Source: Propionicimonas paludicola
GTDB lineage: Bacteria > Actinomycetota > Actinomycetes > Propionibacteriales > Propionibacteriaceae
NCBI RefSeq assembly: GCF_002563675.1
Contig: NZ_PDJC01000001.1
Span: 2,480,001-2,544,000 of the forward strand
Length of the DNA: 64,000 bases
Direction of reading: 5' to 3'
Shown: piece after piece, positions 9,993 through 64,000 of the stretch
Layout: each line of letters begins with the position of its first letter
Numbering within the stretch: the stretch's first letter is position 1
Translations under genes and position numbers: made by a program
The notes under the pieces: generated by a model
Database searches by the model: none
What the model was told of the DNA's origin: nothing
What the model saw: only the letters and a program-made list of their open reading frames with translations

Positions 9993-11687
9993 ATGACCAC
10001 CGCCACCACACCGCGACCCGCCCTGATCCCCGCCCACATCCGACGACACCTGACCGGCCTCCTGCCCGGTCCCGCCGACCTCGCCCCCATGCGGACGAGC
10101 TGGCGCCGCGACCTGATCGCCGGCATCACCGTCGGCGTGGTCGCGCTGCCGCTGGCCCTGGCCTTCGGGGTGAGCTCCGGCCTGGGCGCGTCCGCCGGGC
10201 TGATCACCGCGATCGTGGCCGGCGTGGTGGCCGCGGTCTTCGGCGGTTCCCACGTCCAGGTGTCCGGGCCGACCGGGGCGATGGCCGTCGTCCTGGCCCC
10301 GATCGTGGCCGCCCACGGCCCGCACGCGGTGATCGTGGTCTCGGTGATCGCCGGAGTGATCCTGGTCGCGGCCGGCGCACTGCGGCTGGGCCGAGTGGTG
10401 GTCTACATTCCGTGGCCGGTGATCGAAGGTTTCACCGCCGGAATCGCCCTGGTCATCGCGTTGCAGCAGGTGCCACTGGCCTTGGACACGTCCACCCCGA
10501 CCGGAGAGCGGACGATGCTGGCCGCCTACGACGCCGTCCGGCTGGCTGACTGGAGCCACGCCTGGCTGCCGCTGACCATCGCCCTGGGCGTGGTGGTGCT
10601 GGTCGAGGCGCTGCGCCGGCTGCCCGGCTCGCTGCCCGGTGCCCTGATCGCCGTGGTGGCGGCCACCATCGTGGCCGAGGTGGCCGGACTGAATGTCACT
10701 CGGATCGGCGAACTGCCTTCTCACCTGCCGATGCCCAGCATCCCCATGATCGACCCCAGCATTCTCAGCGAGCTGGCCGGACCGGCCCTGGCCGTGGCCG
10801 CACTGGCCGCCATCGAGTCGCTGCTGTCGGCCCGGGTGGCGGCCGGCATGGCCCCGACCGGACGGGTGCTGCCCGACCGCGAGGTCTTCGGCCAGGGATT
10901 GGCTTCGATCGCGTCCGGACTGTTCGGCGGAATGCCGGCCACCGGCGCCATCGCCCGGACCGCGGTGAACGTCCGCGCCGGCGCCCGCTCCCGGCTCTCA
11001 GCAGTCACTCACGCCGTCCTGCTCACCGCGGTGGTCGCCTTCGGCTCCGGACTGGCCTCCCGGATTCCGCTGTCCGCCCTGGCCGGGGTGCTGATCGCCA
11101 CCACCTTGCACATGGTCAACCCGCGCGAGGTGCGCGGCCTGATGAAGGTCGGACGCAGCACGGCGGCCACCTTCGTGGTCACCATCGCCTGCACGGTGCT
11201 GCTCGACCTGCTCACCGCGGTCGAGGTCGGACTGGTGCTGGCCGCCTTCTTCGCGCTGCGCGCCATGGCCGACACCACCCACGTGGCCACCCAGCCGCTG
11301 CCCGGCCCACCGACCCGAGGCGATGAGCACATCGCTCTGCTGCGGCTGGAGGGATCGCTCTTCTTCGGGGCCGCCGATCGGGTGATGGACGACATCGCCG
11401 ACGCCGAGGCCTGGGTGGTGATTCTGCGGCTGTCCAAGGTGGAGCTGCTCGATCCCACCGGCGCGCACCGGCTGGCCGAGATCGTCCGGCTGCTCGAGGC
11501 CCGCGGGGTCACCGTCCTGATCAAGGGTCTGCGCAACCGACACCAGCGGATGGCGGCCCGGGCCGGCGTCCTGGAGGCGCTGCGCACCGATCAGCACCTG
11601 TTCAACGACCTGGACGTCGCCGTGGCCCACGCCCGCAGCCACGTCGCCCGGCAGCTGGCCGGCCAGCCCGTCCCTCGTCGCCGGTAG
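9993..11687 (+). CDS. SulP-family inorganic anion transporter with STAS domain
   Basis: A 564-residue protein with a SulP membrane domain (about residues 30-400; RDLIAGITVGVVALPLALAFG near the N-terminus, GSHVQVSGPTGAMAVV and the FGGMPATGAIARTAVNVRAGARSRLS block). It ends in a cytoplasmic STAS domain (about 430-540, HIALLRLEGSLFFGAADR and KVELLDPTGAHRLAEIV). SulP proteins move sulfate, bicarbonate or dicarboxylates, usually with Na+ or H+; the substrate cannot be read from sequence. It is probably cotranscribed with the ArsR gene 31 bases upstream. No clear ribosome site precedes the ATG, consistent with coupling. Confidence 0.92.
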   Translation: MTTATTPRPALIPAHIRRHLTGLLPGPADLAPMRTSWRRDLIAGITVGVVALPLALAFGVSSGLGASAGLITAIVAGVVAAVFGGSHVQVSGPTGAMAVVLAPIVAAHGPHAVIVVSVIAGVILVAAGALRLGRVVVYIPWPVIEGFTAGIALVIALQQVPLALDTSTPTGERTMLAAYDAVRLADWSHAWLPLTIALGVVVLVEALRRLPGSLPGALIAVVAATIVAEVAGLNVTRIGELPSHLPMPSIPMIDPSILSELAGPALAVAALAAIESLLSARVAAGMAPTGRVLPDREVFGQGLASIASGLFGGMPATGAIARTAVNVRAGARSRLSAVTHAVLLTAVVAFGSGLASRIPLSALAGVLIATTLHMVNPREVRGLMKVGRSTAATFVVTIACTVLLDLLTAVEVGLVLAAFFALRAMADTTHVATQPLPGPPTRGDEHIALLRLEGSLFFGAADRVMDDIADAEAWVVILRLSKVELLDPTGAHRLAEIVRLLEARGVTVLIKGLRNRHQRMAARAGVLEALRTDQHLFNDLDVAVAHARSHVARQLAGQPVPRRR

Positions 11688-11824
11688 CTCCTCCCCATGT
11701 CGAATGCACTCGGGCGGCGCCTAAATCCTAGTGTCGCGAGCCGCTTGTGATGAATCCTGGGTCTAGCAGGGCGCAGCCTCACAAGTGTACGTTTGGCGCA
11801 CATGCTCATGTAGCTACACCCCGA

Positions 11825-14275
11825 ATGCGAGAACCCATGCCAGCCAGCCGCGACCACGAGCAGCCGCTAGCAAAGGCAGAGCTACTTTCCGCCTACCCCG
11901 ACCCGGAATGGAGATCTAGATACCTCGAGTTATCGGATCTTCGGGACCTGCTGCGCGCATGCATCCTCAGCCCCGGCTACACAATATCCGATGCACTAAA
12001 CTCGGCCATACACCTCAGCGACTCCGGATCAAGACTGCGGACTCAGGTAGCCACCAGGAAGACAGGCCCTATACCTGCGAAAGAAGCGACCGTTCTTTGC
12101 TTTCTCAGGCTGGGCTACACGGATCTCCTAGTTGACATCGAAAAGACTAACCCTGACCAGGTGCGCAGCTCTATCAACGATCAACTGCTAGCGCGGAAGA
12201 TCCTCCTGCCTCACACATATGGAAGACTGCTGTACGACAAGGGCGCGGACCTATTTCCCTATGAGACCCCACGCCTAACTTTCGATGAGACGATACAATT
12301 GCTCACCGATACCCCGATTGGCTTCACTCAGCTTGGATACTGGACCACAGGGCCAATGGGATTCCTCAAATCTCTGGAACAAAGATGGATACCGCCGCGG
12401 CGACGGGTACCCTTCTACCACTGCTCCAACCTGGGATGCAGCATCATTCACTATGCCGAACTCTCAACCAATCATGGCGCAGCTGTGAATCCCTACACTG
12501 ACCAGTTCGACAGATCTTTGAGAACGATCTCCGAACAGTCGTCTGAATGGGCACAGTTTGAGGCCGAGATAGTCAAGGGTGCCAAGCGGCCGTATGACGA
12601 CCGCTCCCAGCTTGCGACGCACTGGCTTCTGGGCGACTGCCTGTCGTCAGAGGAGCTGGCCTTGCTCTTGAGGCACCTAATGGACGAAGACCACGAGAAG
12701 GCAGATCTCCGGCAGGTGCTGGCAAATGCTGGCATCCACGGCGCCTCCTCAGCCGTCCTCGATCGCTCACAGGCCGAGTTGATGCAGTTGACACTGCTCG
12801 CTCGGGACGAGGCCATCGTCCGCTCCCTAGACAAGCTCGTCGGGCGACAGGTAGTGAGTGTGCCAGGCGAGGAGATCCGGCGGCCCATAATCAACGCCGG
12901 TGCTGGCAGTGGGCACTATGGCCTACGCCCAGAACTCAGTGCCGATGGAGTGCGGTTTGTCGCTCGCTTCGAGGATCTGGCACCACTCCGCCTTAAGCGG
13001 CTTGTGCGCAGGCTCTACCCAACAAGGGAGAGCGGAGACATCATCGAGTTTGACTGGCAGCTCCGAGGAACCGATGCGATCACAGCTGAAGGGAAGCTTG
13101 AGCAGTTCATTCGCAGCAACACGCCAGAACAGGTGGTCAAGCGTCTGGTTCTGGCCTCCAAGGCCAACGTAATCACTACGGGAGTCGAACTGGCGATTGA
13201 CACCGACGATTATGACACTGACGATGCATTCGTACGAAGGGTTCTCTGGAAGCTCGGATATCCGGCGCAAAGTTCCGAGGACTTCAACCAGAGGTTCTGG
13301 CGGCTTCACGATGAGATGTCTCGCCTATCTCAGACAGCAGGCGTAAGCGCAGTGGTAGACGAGTCCGCGGTCCGCTCGCTCGCGAGCAACTACTTCGTCG
13401 AGCTCGAAGGTGTGCTAGATGACTCGCTCGCTTTCATCACCTGGCTGCTCCTGATGGAGCACATGTCGGACACCGAGCCATTCACCTATCACATCGAACG
13501 TGACCGACTTGAGGCATTCAGACTGCTTTCGCAGATATCTTTGAGCCATACATCCACACAGGAAGTCATCACATTCTCCGAGCAGAACCAGCTGCACCCC
13601 CTGTGCCGTGGCTTTGCCGTACTTGCGGACCACCTCAAGAGCCTAGTAGCCGAGGAGCGGTCACACAGGCGACCCGAGAGCGAGCTCCCAGTTGGAGTTC
13701 ACGGATCCGATCTCAAGACCTACCCTTTTTTCCACTACGAAGTGTATCTAGACCTCACCAAGGACGCCCAGACCGCGATAGTCGACCTTCTCCACGAGGT
13801 GTCTCGCAGACTCCTCAGCGCAGATGTCCCCCACATTCGCAATAGCTGGCAGCACTACCGCCGATCCACTGTCGCCATCGAGCCGCTGATCTCCTGCCTT
13901 CAGAGCGTCGCCTCGGTTATCTCCTCTCTCGAAGGCGCTGGCCTGTGCCGGATAATGTACTCACACACTGGGCTTTCTTTTGACGCATGGGGTCGCGGGT
14001 TCTTCCGATTTCAGGACCGGCGAGGTCGCGAAATATCACTCGCAACGCCCTCCACATTGGACCTCGGGGCGCTGCCATCTCCGACAATGCCGCAGTACCT
14101 CGCGACTATCGCACTCCTCTCCGGCTCGGGCGACTTCGTCCGCTGCAAGAGAGAAGAGCCGAGCGAGTTCTCTCGCGTGTGGTCCGGCTATCCGACGCGA
14201 CGACATGAGGGCAAGACCAAGGAGACGGGGGAGGGCGAGCAACTACCGGAGGGGGATGTTGACGTCGAGATATGA
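11825..14275 (+). CDS. Large protein of unknown function, AT-richer than its surroundings
   Basis: About 816 residues; I do not recognise the family. There is no signal peptide, no clear membrane segment and no Walker A. A short cysteine pair occurs in FYHCSNLGCSIIHYAELST (about residue 200). The C-terminal half is mixed helical with many Leu/Ile (SSLEGAGLCRIMYSHTGLSFDAWGRGFFRF near 730) and the tail is charged. Composition is unlike the neighbours: 12121-12180 has 30 G+C of 60, against 49 of 60 at 10141-10200, and codons such as ATA, AGA and ACA are used freely, suggesting recent acquisition. Possible starts are 11747, 11825 and 11837; a TGTAGCTACA palindrome (11809-11818) with TAGCTA 8 bases before 11825 favours the middle one. 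It stands alone between core genes. Confidence 0.75.
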   Translation: MREPMPASRDHEQPLAKAELLSAYPDPEWRSRYLELSDLRDLLRACILSPGYTISDALNSAIHLSDSGSRLRTQVATRKTGPIPAKEATVLCFLRLGYTDLLVDIEKTNPDQVRSSINDQLLARKILLPHTYGRLLYDKGADLFPYETPRLTFDETIQLLTDTPIGFTQLGYWTTGPMGFLKSLEQRWIPPRRRVPFYHCSNLGCSIIHYAELSTNHGAAVNPYTDQFDRSLRTISEQSSEWAQFEAEIVKGAKRPYDDRSQLATHWLLGDCLSSEELALLLRHLMDEDHEKADLRQVLANAGIHGASSAVLDRSQAELMQLTLLARDEAIVRSLDKLVGRQVVSVPGEEIRRPIINAGAGSGHYGLRPELSADGVRFVARFEDLAPLRLKRLVRRLYPTRESGDIIEFDWQLRGTDAITAEGKLEQFIRSNTPEQVVKRLVLASKANVITTGVELAIDTDDYDTDDAFVRRVLWKLGYPAQSSEDFNQRFWRLHDEMSRLSQTAGVSAVVDESAVRSLASNYFVELEGVLDDSLAFITWLLLMEHMSDTEPFTYHIERDRLEAFRLLSQISLSHTSTQEVITFSEQNQLHPLCRGFAVLADHLKSLVAEERSHRRPESELPVGVHGSDLKTYPFFHYEVYLDLTKDAQTAIVDLLHEVSRRLLSADVPHIRNSWQHYRRSTVAIEPLISCLQSVASVISSLEGAGLCRIMYSHTGLSFDAWGRGFFRFQDRRGREISLATPSTLDLGALPSPTMPQYLATIALLSGSGDFVRCKREEPSEFSRVWSGYPTRRHEGKTKETGEGEQLPEGDVDVEI

Positions 14276-14406
14276 CGCGACACGCTCGCTGGATCGGACG
14301 CCGAGTCCAGAGGTCGGCCAGCGCTAGCACCTCGCTAGTTCTCGAGAGTTGACCCAGAATGTGAGCGGGCCGCTGCCGTGACGGCTCTGCGGAAGGGCCG
14401 GACGAC

Positions 14407-15177
14407 ATGGGTGGGCTCACCTGGACCTGGGACTACTTCTTCGTCCCGCAGAACCGACCCACCCCTGGCGACGCCGGCTTCGGCATGTTCTCCACGATCC
14501 ACCTCGGCGTGCTGGCCCTGATCGGATTGGGCATCGTGGCGCTGGCCGTCGGCTACCGCCGGGCCGGCCAGGAGCGACGCCGCACGATGCGGCTAACCAT
14601 CGGCTGGACGGTCCTGTCACTCGAAGTGCTGCGTCAGACGTCCTACCTGGTCAACGGCTGGTACAGCGCCGAGATCCTGCCGCTGCACCTGTGTGCCTTC
14701 GCCACGGTCGCGGTGTTCATCGATGCCCTGCGGCCCAACCGCTGGACCGGTGACTTCCTCTACGCGATGGGCTGGTGGGGCGCCCTGGCCGCGAACCTGT
14801 TCCCGGACTGGGCCACTCGCCCGATCCTCAACATCTTCACCTGGCAGAGCTTCTCGATCCACGGCCTGATCTTCGGCTACCTGGTGATGCGGCTGGTCGG
14901 CGGCGACCTGGTTCCGGACGTCCGCAACCTGTGGCGGGTGGTAGTGATCGCCGCCGTCGGCTGCCTGATCGGTTTCAGCGCAAACCAGGCCTTCGGGACC
15001 AACTTCTGGTTCCTCAACGCCGGCGCCCCCGGCTCCCCACTGGAGCCGATCCAGAAGCTCGCCGGCCCCTGGTACATCCCCGTGCTGATGGTGCTGGTCT
15101 CCCTGCTCTGGACGCTGCTCTACCTGCCCTGGATCATCCGCGCTCGCCGCGCCGAGGCGGAGCCGGCACAGGCCTAG
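14407..15177 (+). CDS. YwaF/TIGR02206-type integral membrane protein
   Basis: A 256-residue protein with about six to seven hydrophobic segments. Characteristic parts are WDYFFVPQN at the start, ILPLHLCAFATVAVFIDAL in the middle (conserved Leu-His-x-Cys) and GPWYIPVLMVLVSLLW at the end, which match the YwaF membrane family. The family function is unknown. GGAAGG upstream of ATG 14407 serves as ribosome site. It is followed after 36 bases by an MFS transporter. Confidence 0.82.
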   Translation: MGGLTWTWDYFFVPQNRPTPGDAGFGMFSTIHLGVLALIGLGIVALAVGYRRAGQERRRTMRLTIGWTVLSLEVLRQTSYLVNGWYSAEILPLHLCAFATVAVFIDALRPNRWTGDFLYAMGWWGALAANLFPDWATRPILNIFTWQSFSIHGLIFGYLVMRLVGGDLVPDVRNLWRVVVIAAVGCLIGFSANQAFGTNFWFLNAGAPGSPLEPIQKLAGPWYIPVLMVLVSLLWTLLYLPWIIRARRAEAEPAQA

Positions 15178-15213
15178 GATCGCTTCGGATCGGACGACTC
15201 CAGGAGGCCGGAC

Positions 15214-16434
15214 GTGACCGAGCAACCCACACAGGACCAGACACCCAGCGGGTGGCTGACTCCGGGTGTGTCCAGCGTCGCGGCGGCGTCCTTCTTCTCC
15301 GACACCGGCCATGAGATGGCTACCTCGCTGCTGCCTGGCTTCGTCACCGGAGTGCTCGGCGGCGGCGCGTCCGCCTTGGCCGCGATCGACGGGGTGGCGG
15401 ACGCTCTGACCGGGCTCAGCAAGCTGGCCGGTGGCCCGCTGGCCGCCGAGCCCAAACGCCGAGGATGGCTGGCCCGCAGCGGATACCTCGGGACGGCATT
15501 GGCCACCGCTGGCATCGGCCTCACCACAGCCATCTGGCAGGTGGCGATCCTGCGTGCGATCGCCTGGGTCTCCCGTGGCCTGCGTTCGCCGGCCCGGGAC
15601 ATGGTCCTGACCGACCTCACCACGCGTCGCAGCGTCGGTCGAGCCTTCGGCCTGGAACGGGCCGGCGACAATCTGGGGGCGATCCTCGGGCCGCTGCTCG
15701 CCTCGGCCCTGGTCGGCGTGTTCGGCGTCCGGTGGACGATCCTGCTCGCGCTCATTCCCGGCGCCCTGGCCGCGATTGCCATCTCCGTGGCCGTCGGCGA
15801 GGCCCGGGCCACCCTGACCACAGGCACAGCCAAGGCTCGACTTTCGCTGAACCTGCGCGAACTGAGCCGCGAAGGCATCTGGCGCACACTGACGCCGGTC
15901 TCGCTGTTCGAGCTGGGCAACCTGGCCAACACCCTGCTGATCCTGCGAGCCACCGATCTGTTGGTCGGCTCAGGCTGGCATCCGGGTGCCGCAGCCAGCG
16001 CAGCCATCCTGGCCTACGCGGGCCACAACGCCGTCGCCGTGGGCAGCGCCTTGCTGGCCGGACAACTCACCGACCGACGCAGCCCACGAGCCGCATTCGC
16101 CCTTGGTGCAGCCTGTTTCGTGGCCGCCTACCTGACCTTCGCCTTCGGCACCGGGATCGCTGCAGTGATTGTCGGCTTCGTGCTGGCCGGAGCCGGAATC
16201 GGGCTGGCTGAGACCGCCGAGTCGGCGGTGGTCGCGCTGTCGGTGTCGGCCGAGAATCGCAGTCACGCCTTCGGCCTCCTCGGACTGGTCCAGTCAGTCG
16301 GCGACTTGGGGGCGACCGTGGTGGCCGGCATCTTGTGGTCGGTGGTCTCACCGCAGCTGGCTTTCGGCTATGCAGCCACCTGGATGCTGCTCAGCCTGAT
16401 CAGCGGACGCCTGCTGACTCCGCGTCCAGCCTGA
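15214..16434 (+). CDS. MFS transporter
   Basis: A 406-residue polytopic protein with about 10-12 hydrophobic segments. An MFS-like half starts with SVAAASFFSDTGHEMATSLLPGFVTGVLGGG; the loop AWVSRGLRSPARDMVLTDLTTRRSVGRAFGLERAGDNLGAILGPLLAS is typical of major facilitator proteins, and the second half has AGQLTDRRSPRAAFALGA. The substrate is unknown. The GTG start is preceded by CAGGAGG. It may be cotranscribed with the membrane gene upstream; the enolase downstream has its own leader. Confidence 0.88.
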   Translation: MTEQPTQDQTPSGWLTPGVSSVAAASFFSDTGHEMATSLLPGFVTGVLGGGASALAAIDGVADALTGLSKLAGGPLAAEPKRRGWLARSGYLGTALATAGIGLTTAIWQVAILRAIAWVSRGLRSPARDMVLTDLTTRRSVGRAFGLERAGDNLGAILGPLLASALVGVFGVRWTILLALIPGALAAIAISVAVGEARATLTTGTAKARLSLNLRELSREGIWRTLTPVSLFELGNLANTLLILRATDLLVGSGWHPGAAASAAILAYAGHNAVAVGSALLAGQLTDRRSPRAAFALGAACFVAAYLTFAFGTGIAAVIVGFVLAGAGIGLAETAESAVVALSVSAENRSHAFGLLGLVQSVGDLGATVVAGILWSVVSPQLAFGYAATWMLLSLISGRLLTPRPA

Positions 16435-16634
16435 GCCGCGCACTGGCGTCCGCCAGCGACTACAGTCGAACCAGGCGGTGGGGCTCACCTAACCCAAACT
16501 GTCGCTTCGGCGGCCAACAGTCCCTATCTCGTGCACGGCGCAGTTGCGGCGAGATAGGCCCGTCCATCTCACCTCAGCCCTCGTGCACGCAGCCGAGTTC
16601 CACAGGGGAACCGTGCGGACGAAAGGGGCCGACA

Positions 16635-17897
16635 GTGGCTTTCGAAATCAATGGTGTGCAGGCGATCGAGATCCTCGACTCCCGCGGACGTCCCACCCTC
16701 AACGTGACGGTCAGCCTGGCCGACGGCACGGTGGCCGAGGCCGGAGTCCCGTCCGGGGCGTCCACCGGAACCCGAGAGGCCGTCGAGCTTCGCGACGGCG
16801 ACCCGTCCCGCTTCGGTGGGTCCGGGGTCAGCAAGGCCGTCGGGAACGTGAACGGCGAACTGAACACCGCACTGTCCGGGCTCAGCTGGACCAGCCTGGC
16901 CGAGGTCGATCGAGCGATGTGCGACCTGGACGGCACCCCGAACAAGGCCCGGCTCGGCGCGAACGCCCTGATCGGCACCTCGATGGCGCTGGCCCGGGCG
17001 CTGGCCGCGTCCGCCGGCCGTCCGATGTACGAATGGCTGCCCGGGATCAGCGAGGCCCGGCTGCCGGTGCCCTGCTTCAACGTGCTCAACGGCGGCGCCC
17101 ACGCGCCCAACCCGCTCGACTTCCAGGAGTTCATGGTCTGCCCGCTGGGGGCTACCTCGATGCGGGAGGCCATCCGGGCTGGCGCCGAGGTGTACCAGGC
17201 GCTGCGCAAGCGCCTGGTGGCCGGCGGACACGCCACCGGCCTGGGCGATGAAGGCGGCTTCGCCCCCAACCTGGCCGAGCCCGAAGAGGTGCTCGAGCTG
17301 ATCGTGGCCTCGATCAACGATGCCGGCTACCCCAGCGGCACGGCCGGCATCGGGATCGCCCTCGACCCGGCCGCTTCGGAGTTCTGGACCGCCGACGGCT
17401 ACAAGGTCAACGGCACGCTGCTGAGCAGCGCCGACATGATCGCCCGCTACGCCGAGATGGTCACCCGCTTCCCGATCTGGAGCATCGAGGACGGTCTGGG
17501 TGAGCAGGATCCGGACGGCTGGAAGCAGCTCACCGCGACCCTGGGCGAGCGGATCCAGTTGGTCGGCGACGACAACTTCTGCACCAACCCGGCCATCATC
17601 ACCGCGGCCATCGCGGACGGCATCGCCAACGCAGCTCTGATCAAGGTCAACCAGATCGGCACCGTCACCGAGACCGTGGAAGCCATGCGGATCTGCCATG
17701 AAGCCGGCTATGGCCAGATGGTCTCGCACCGTTCCGGCGAGACCCCGGACACCTTCATCGCCGACCTGGCGGTGGCCACCGGCTGCGGCCAGATCAAGAC
17801 CGGCGCCCCGGCCCGCGGCGAGCGGATCGCCAAGTACAACCGGCTGGTCCAGATCGAGGCCGCGCGCCCGTCCCTGAGCTACGGACTGGCCGGCTAG
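16635..17897 (+). CDS. eno: Enolase (phosphopyruvate hydratase)
   Basis: A 420-residue enolase that dehydrates 2-phosphoglycerate to phosphoenolpyruvate in glycolysis. Conserved blocks are all present: the SGASTG mobile loop (near 40), NGGAHAPNPLDFQEF, GDEGGFAPN, the metal ligands in ALDPAASEF, SIEDGLGEQD and GDDNF, the catalytic Lys in LIKVNQIG, the SHRSGET loop and IKTGAPARGER. The GTG start follows AAAGGGG. It is not next to mazG or ftsB/divIC-type genes, where the actinobacterial housekeeping eno usually lies. It might be a second copy or simply a rearranged locus. Confidence 0.95.
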   Translation: MAFEINGVQAIEILDSRGRPTLNVTVSLADGTVAEAGVPSGASTGTREAVELRDGDPSRFGGSGVSKAVGNVNGELNTALSGLSWTSLAEVDRAMCDLDGTPNKARLGANALIGTSMALARALAASAGRPMYEWLPGISEARLPVPCFNVLNGGAHAPNPLDFQEFMVCPLGATSMREAIRAGAEVYQALRKRLVAGGHATGLGDEGGFAPNLAEPEEVLELIVASINDAGYPSGTAGIGIALDPAASEFWTADGYKVNGTLLSSADMIARYAEMVTRFPIWSIEDGLGEQDPDGWKQLTATLGERIQLVGDDNFCTNPAIITAAIADGIANAALIKVNQIGTVTETVEAMRICHEAGYGQMVSHRSGETPDTFIADLAVATGCGQIKTGAPARGERIAKYNRLVQIEAARPSLSYGLAG

Positions 17898-17911
17898 CCC
17901 TCCCGTCCTGG

Positions 17912-17937
17912 GCCCCACGGAGTCACCTTCGTGGGGC
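17912..17937 (+). terminator. Hairpin downstream of enolase
   Basis: GCCCCACG (17912-17919) and CGTGGGGC (17930-17937) form an 8-bp stem with a 10-base loop 14 bases after the enolase stop. It lacks a clear T-run. The rest of 17938-18080 shows no gene or recognisable site. Confidence 0.55.
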
Positions 17938-18083
17938 GCCGACGCCTGGGCTGCGCCGCGTCTGCGCAAACCGGACCGAGGAGCATCGAGTCGCCCCCAT
18001 TCGAGGCACCCAGCGGACGAAAAGTGGACGTCACCCGGGCGGGGACGCAAAGTCCCTAGTAGACGCCGATCCGACGATCCAAT

Positions 18084-62871: not shown

Positions 62872-63024
62872 CCGCCGGCCAGTCTTCAGGAGCCGTCGAG
62901 AGTAAGGACTGATTTCCCAACCAGCCCGTGACTAGCCAAGAGAAGCTGTCGTACGGTCAGTAGGTCCGGCTGGTTCGCGTGCCCCGCGCGCCCAGCAATT
63001 CGACATCGTCGAGGAGGCCACAGC

Positions 63025-64000
63025 GTGCCGAGCCTTCGCATCCGCCAACGCGACGGCCGACGGTCCTTGCTGATCGTTGCGCTGAGCCTTGCCTTGAGCG
63101 CCTCCCTGCTCCTGGTTGCGCCCGGTCGGGCCTGGGCGGCGAAGTACGCCAAGCCAACCGGGCTGACCGCGACCGTCAGCGCCAACACCGTGGCCTTGAC
63201 CTGGAAGGCAGTCAAGGGCGCCCCCGGCTACCGGGTGCAGTTCTCCACCGAGCCGAAGATGAACACCTTCGCGACCCTCGACGTGGTCAAGCCCTACGTC
63301 GAGTGGACGAACCTGGACATGGATCCGAATCGGAACGCTCCACGGCTGAGTCCGAACACGACCTACTACTTCCGGGTGAAGGTGATTACCCTCGCCAAGG
63401 CCAACCTGACCTCCTACTCGAAGATCTTGAAGGTCAAGACCGCCAAGGCCGACCGGATGGCTGAGCTGCCTCCGATCGCGCTCAAGGCCACCACCCAGAG
63501 CCCCTCTTCGATGTACCTGTCGTGGTCGTCCCGCGGACCGGGAGTCGTCTACCGGATCCGCTACGGCACCGGCAAGAAGCTCCCCCTCGGCAAGTCCCAG
63601 CTGGCCCACAGCGAGTATCCCGGCATGGTGCTGAGCGGGCTGGCCGCCGGCACCAAGTACTACTACAAGGTTCGGGTGCTCACCCCCGACCGCCTCGGGT
63701 ACCGTTCCGACTACTCCACGACCGGCTCCTTCACCACCGCAAAGAAGGCCGGCTCACCGGTACTCAAGGTCGGCACCTACAACCTGTGCAGCTCCCCCTG
63801 CGCGGGCTGGAACGGAACTCGCGAACCGGCAGCGGTGGCCAACATCGCCGCGCAGTCGCTGGACGTGCTCTATCTGCAGGAGATCTCCACCAGCAAGCTG
63901 CCGAACTTCCTGACCGCGCTGAATGCGGCCTCCGGCCGGCGCTACGTCAGCACCGATCCGGCTAACCGGAACGTCTCGAACACCACTCGGCTGGTGTACG
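63025..64000 (+). CDS. Secreted FN3-FN3-EEP protein, copy 3 (3' end outside window)
   Basis: The frame starts at GTG 63025 (GAGGAGG at 63011-63017) and stays open to the window edge, 325 codons. Signal peptide LLIVALSLALSASLLLVAPGRAWA; FN3 domains with TVALTWKAVKGAPGYRVQFS and SSMYLSWSSRGPGVVYRIRY, nearly the same words as copy 2; then the start of the EEP domain, LKVGTYNLCSSPCAGW and VLYLQEIS. The catalytic C-terminal half is not visible. Likely product of tandem duplication with copy 2. Confidence 0.88.
   Translation, partial: MPSLRIRQRDGRRSLLIVALSLALSASLLLVAPGRAWAAKYAKPTGLTATVSANTVALTWKAVKGAPGYRVQFSTEPKMNTFATLDVVKPYVEWTNLDMDPNRNAPRLSPNTTYYFRVKVITLAKANLTSYSKILKVKTAKADRMAELPPIALKATTQSPSSMYLSWSSRGPGVVYRIRYGTGKKLPLGKSQLAHSEYPGMVLSGLAAGTKYYYKVRVLTPDRLGYRSDYSTTGSFTTAKKAGSPVLKVGTYNLCSSPCAGWNGTREPAAVANIAAQSLDVLYLQEISTSKLPNFLTALNAASGRRYVSTDPANRNVSNTTRLVY

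Follow-up and report, generated by a model that had tools for sequence, protein, structure and literature searches.

In the 64-kb stretch of DNA analysed here (the window), an intact open reading frame of 816 aa runs from an ATG at 11825 to a stop codon that ends at 14275 (Table 1). It is preceded on the 5′ side by the gene of a SulP permease, which runs to 11687, and followed on the 3′ side by the genes of a TMEM164-family protein (start at 14407) and an MFS transporter. These flanks are ordinary, in agreement with the preliminary description, according to which no mobile gene lies beside the 816-aa gene; neither a defence nor a mobile gene adjoins the window copy, which counts against a defence role. 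The genome that carries the window consists of one contig of 3.26 Mb, and the gene is present in it in a single copy.

The 816-aa gene has a foreign composition. Its GC content is 0.578, as compared with 0.682 ± 0.022 for stretches of equal length outside it (z −4.8), and is the lowest among the same-size stretches of the window. The base counts from which a GC lower than on both sides had been read, 30/60 inside and 49/60 outside, are exact. The uncommon codons that had also been reported are borne out by the codon adaptation relative to the remainder of the window, which at 0.408 is the minimum among the window ORFs longer than 250 aa. A second patch of low GC3 (0.54–0.56), also with low codon adaptation, is located at positions 62932–63965, at the end of the window.

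The palindrome that had been put forward as a possible operator of the gene is indeed present upstream and occurs once in the window. However, perfect 10-bp palindromes number 134 in the window, so that one before the ATG is unremarkable, and TGTAGCTACA is absent from every homologue locus; the operator role is thus not supported.

Table 1. Features of the 816-aa gene and its surroundings, in window positions
Feature	Position	Strand	Basis or remark
816-aa gene, rare unnamed actinobacterial family	11825..14275	+	alternative start possible at 11837
Accessory segment without counterpart in G028	11684..14406		blastn of flanks; includes the last SulP bases, to 11687
TGTAGCTACA palindrome, 6 bp before the ATG	11809..11818		unsupported as operator
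H199-C200-x4-C205-x3-H209, zinc-site-like motif	12419..12451	+	alignment of 11 members
HEPN-like predicted four-helix-type bundle, residues about 508–708	13346..13948	+	AlphaFold2; weak profile match
R672-N673-x3-H677, HEPN-type RNase motif after helix 3	13838..13855	+	invariant in 11 members
Small predicted beta domain after the bundle, residues about 709–776	13949..14152	+	DSSP on models

The same site was compared in the closest relative, genome G028, whose SulP and TMEM164 proteins are 93 and 86% identical, respectively, to those of the window. In the blastn alignment, the 86% identity of the flanks breaks off at 11683 and restarts at 14407, and the corresponding site of G028 (L033 6070–6824) holds 755 bp with a 167-residue frame and nothing resembling the 816-aa gene. 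To judge from its sequence, this frame is probably of the MarR type. Since the flanks are broken at these two positions with the putative MarR gene in between, the segment is an accessory insert or a replacement, and the inspection of the site in relatives, proposed earlier, thus finds the gene missing from G028. In the other relatives that have a close SulP gene, TMEM164 is not kept beside it, which makes them uninformative about the site. Directly after the SulP stop of G028, there are two copies of GGGGACGGTTCCATTACCGTCC, a pair that is possibly a mobile repeat.

An initial scan of the genome contigs with the single protein as query gave no match. The genomes with a homologue number 3 of 30 for the genus, 8 of 392 for the order, 5 of 395 for the class, and 2 of 396 for the phylum sample (the window's own genome included in each), and homologues occur in about 1–2% of the sampled Propionibacteriales and Actinomycetia. 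The gene is accordingly not the orphan that it had been taken for, as at least 11 further members exist, and the genus counts do not show a gene conserved throughout the genus with codon use to match. The homologues are 23–36% identical to the window protein. The two same-genus copies (31 and 23%) are more distant from it than the Nocardioides copies (35–36%), which favours horizontal transfer. The GC3 of the homologues is about 0.53–0.81, mostly below that of the neighbouring genes, and the gene neighbours differ among the homologue loci inspected. The 816-aa gene is a patchy accessory gene, probably moved horizontally.

The absence of a recognised domain, as stated in the preliminary description, is confirmed by the searches: no significant family was found in Pfam, NCBIfam or PADLOC, no family up to an E of 10 among the 5027 models of PADLOC-DB 2.0.0 for the window protein, and no match in a sequence search of the PDB. 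MTase_II, at E 0.066 in one member, is the sole PADLOC match among the family members tested. A CdAMP_rec match in Pfam (E 0.27) and a ParD match in the PDB (E 0.05) are weak and were taken as chance. Homology to a housekeeping family, which would have spoken against the preliminary description, was looked for and not found, and such a family is ruled out by the absent matches and the patchy occurrence. A phage or plasmid gene was also discarded, as tblastn returned nothing in 50,697 phage and 72,556 plasmid records; a pattern scan of viral contigs found no relative of the protein.

The family alignment comprises 11 members with identities of 22–74% and contains 39 invariant columns. The R, N, and H of the C-terminal motif are invariant in all 11, in one of which the spacer from N to H is four residues long. 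The motif reads R672-N673-S-W-Q-H677 in the window protein, which fits the HEPN pattern Rx4-6H with a polar residue after R. When the invariant residues were shuffled, the arrangement R-polar-x3..5-H appeared in 0.07–0.3% of the trials (chance 0.0007–0.003).

The AlphaFold2 model of the full-length protein is too uncertain (pLDDT 63, pTM 0.41), while residues 505–790 alone give a pLDDT of 74.5 and a pTM of 0.76. In the model of this segment, a long helix (513–543), an extra helix (557–574) and a second core helix (590–609) lead to an insert, which is followed by the third helix (646–665), a short helix carrying the RN...H motif (668–677), the fourth core helix (685–704), and the beta domain. 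In the HEPN domains described by Anantharaman and colleagues (PMC3710099), helix 3 terminates in the motif, the R is followed by a polar residue, and insertions are placed between helices 2 and 3. The predicted order of the helices and the position of the motif in the model agree with this description.

A number of results count against the HEPN assignment. With hmmscan, no HEPN family of Pfam was found in nine full-length members or six domain segments, none of which reaches the family cut-off of PF18739 (HEPN_Apea). Foldseek and VIA-align searches with the full-length and domain models listed no HEPN structures; the full-length model had no match at all, and the best rows for the domain model, She2p, GPCRs, and lyases (Z < 6), seem to reflect widespread helical arrangements. 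The assignment is weakly supported by hhalign comparisons based on small fetched alignments, in which the RN...H motif falls in register with HEPN_Apea at E 0.005–0.009 and with Abi_C at E 0.008–0.014, as compared with E 0.11–0.29 for three other segments of the 816-aa protein taken as decoys; the probabilities for the HEPN families are nevertheless low, 3–7%. These comparisons cover HEPN_Apea and Abi_C, DUF4145 being left out on account of too few usable sequences. A gene of the DUF4145 family (HEPN-type) is found elsewhere in the genome of the window (L040, G000:C1:1623630-1623908). Since the fold search gave no HEPN match, we infer HEPN membership from the motif, the modelled helix order and the profile register, and regard the fold as unproven; the C-terminal bundle would then be a true HEPN domain.

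The region of about 500 residues that precedes the bundle is mostly alpha in the model. It contains the zinc-site-like motif, of which C200, C205, and H209 are invariant in 11/11 family members.

Known defence genes lie within 8 kb of the homologue in 5 of the 11 loci (Gabija, PARIS twice, PD-Lambda-1, DrmD/HEC-06, and SoFic). In L027 (genome G1091), a tyrosine integrase with an HTH is located directly upstream of the homologue, and GajA- and GajB-type genes are found at 6 kb. In L026, a PD-Lambda-1 gene adjoins the homologue and an AriAB (PARIS) gene lies 4.4 kb on; positions 12275–18067 of this locus, with PD-Lambda-1 and fused AriAB genes, form a compact defence island. An AriAB-type gene lies 2.6 kb off in L028, DrmD-type SNF2 and GmrSD/HEC-06 genes within 6 kb in L012 (Actinokineospora terrae), and a SoFic gene is the immediate neighbour in L032. 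A relaxase, integrase or tRNA stands beside five homologues, with TrwC relaxases in L024 and L010 and a tRNA 120–220 bp 5′ of the homologue start in L029 and L031. No defence gene, relaxase, integrase or tRNA was found near the homologues of L011 and L025. In G710, the homologue (L029 7665–10165) lies directly downstream of tRNA-His and consists of two overlapping frames, owing to a frameshift or a sequencing error. On its 3′ side, there is an apparent end of a tyrosine integrase.

For comparison, ten further stretches were taken from the contigs that carry the homologues, and their 110 ORFs were searched alongside the 111 ORFs of the homologue loci. At a PADLOC E below 1e-20, 7 families were matched by the control ORFs versus 62 by the homologue-locus ORFs. 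The control matches were judged generic (dGTPase, one fitting a DnaG-like and an RT model equally well, AAA, subtilase, helicase, and PbeA), and Gabija, PARIS or similar systems are found in none of the 10 control loci. With 5/11 defence loci against 0/10 accepted in this small control, the one-sided Fisher p is about 0.02, and it becomes about 0.09 if one ambiguous control AAA match is counted. The suggestion to look for homologues in defence islands has thus been fruitful, in that they are often found there or in mobile elements.

Taken together, a foreign and patchy gene, relatives near defence genes and integrative elements, and the catalytic signature of an RNase class that serves in abortive infection are most simply explained by a single-gene defence protein. 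We assign a probability of about 0.5 to the reading that the 816-aa gene encodes a horizontally acquired anti-phage protein with a HEPN-like RNase effector and an N-terminal sensor. The effector would be the C-terminal HEPN-like domain, acting probably as a metal-independent RNase through R672-N673-x3-H677. Cleavage of host or phage RNA would stop growth or phage production (abortive infection), phage being the presumed trigger. The preceding residues, with the C-x4-C-x3-H site, probably sense the infection and restrain the RNase. The defence role raised in the preliminary description stands as a proposal, given the company that the homologues keep.

Part of this reading would change if the protein served defence but the bundle were no RNase, RN-x3-H being structural and the effector residing elsewhere, e.g., in a zinc-dependent N-terminal activity. 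Such an arrangement would account for the lack of a HEPN match in Pfam and the PDB, and the invariance of C200, C205, and H209 equals that of the RN-H motif. We nevertheless consider it unlikely, in view of the HEPN-like spacing and position of the motif and of the profile comparison that puts the motifs in register.

Doubt may also be cast on the defence role itself. The gene could be cargo of integrative elements with another function (maintenance, a toxin against competitors, or regulation), the nearby defence genes being common cargo, and the TrwC relaxases at two homologues, the tyrosine integrase at one and the tRNA sites of two others are in line with this view. It is improbable in our judgement, since L012, L026, L028, and L032 are near defence genes with no obvious conjugation gene, and the plasmid records contain no match. 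The ordinary genes on both sides of the window copy would also suit an accessory gene with a physiological role and no tie to mobile elements that was lost in most lineages, its low GC being due to relaxed codon use. This explanation is very unlikely, as the same-genus copies are more distant than those of Nocardioides, GC3 is low in every homologue, and the neighbours differ between the loci inspected.

If the reading as a single-gene anti-phage protein is true, a one-gene defence family is added that Pfam, NCBIfam, and the PADLOC 2023 library do not contain, and the sensor region, in which no domain is recognised, would activate a HEPN RNase in a new manner. Clear mutation targets (R672, N673, H677, C200, C205, and H209) and diverse homologues would then be at hand. 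With slightly less assurance than even odds, we propose an undescribed actinobacterial single-protein immune system, in which a large, new sensor region bearing a conserved motif of the metal-site type controls a divergent HEPN RNase that the family libraries do not recognise.

Among the closest known systems are the HEPN_Apea (PF18739) abortive-infection proteins, which also have RN-x3-H between two helices in a C-terminal helical domain preceded by a large extra region, and are also rare and patchy in actinobacteria. In contrast, the 816-aa protein has no Pfam match to this family and a profile E of only 0.005–0.009; ApeA-NTD1 is about 300 aa and mostly beta (PMC3710099), whereas the region here is about 500 aa, mostly alpha in the model, and bears the C-x4-C-x3-H site. 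The abortive-infection C-terminal domain Abi_C (PF14355) shares RN...H followed by a helical stretch, with a weak in-register alignment. However, most Abi_C sequences fetched have an RN...GHG spacing longer than in the 816-aa protein, and their open frames, of about 125–520 aa, are shorter.

A works-like analogue, likened by description and not by sequence, is DS-11, a single protein with a CBS and a HEPN domain, the catalytic residues of the latter being required for defence (PMC13092281), i.e., one protein that combines a regulatory domain with a HEPN effector. The 816-aa protein differs in that no CBS domain was found in it with Pfam. The 816-aa family is missing from the libraries searched, while its proposed layout, since single-protein systems like DS-11 exist, is already known.
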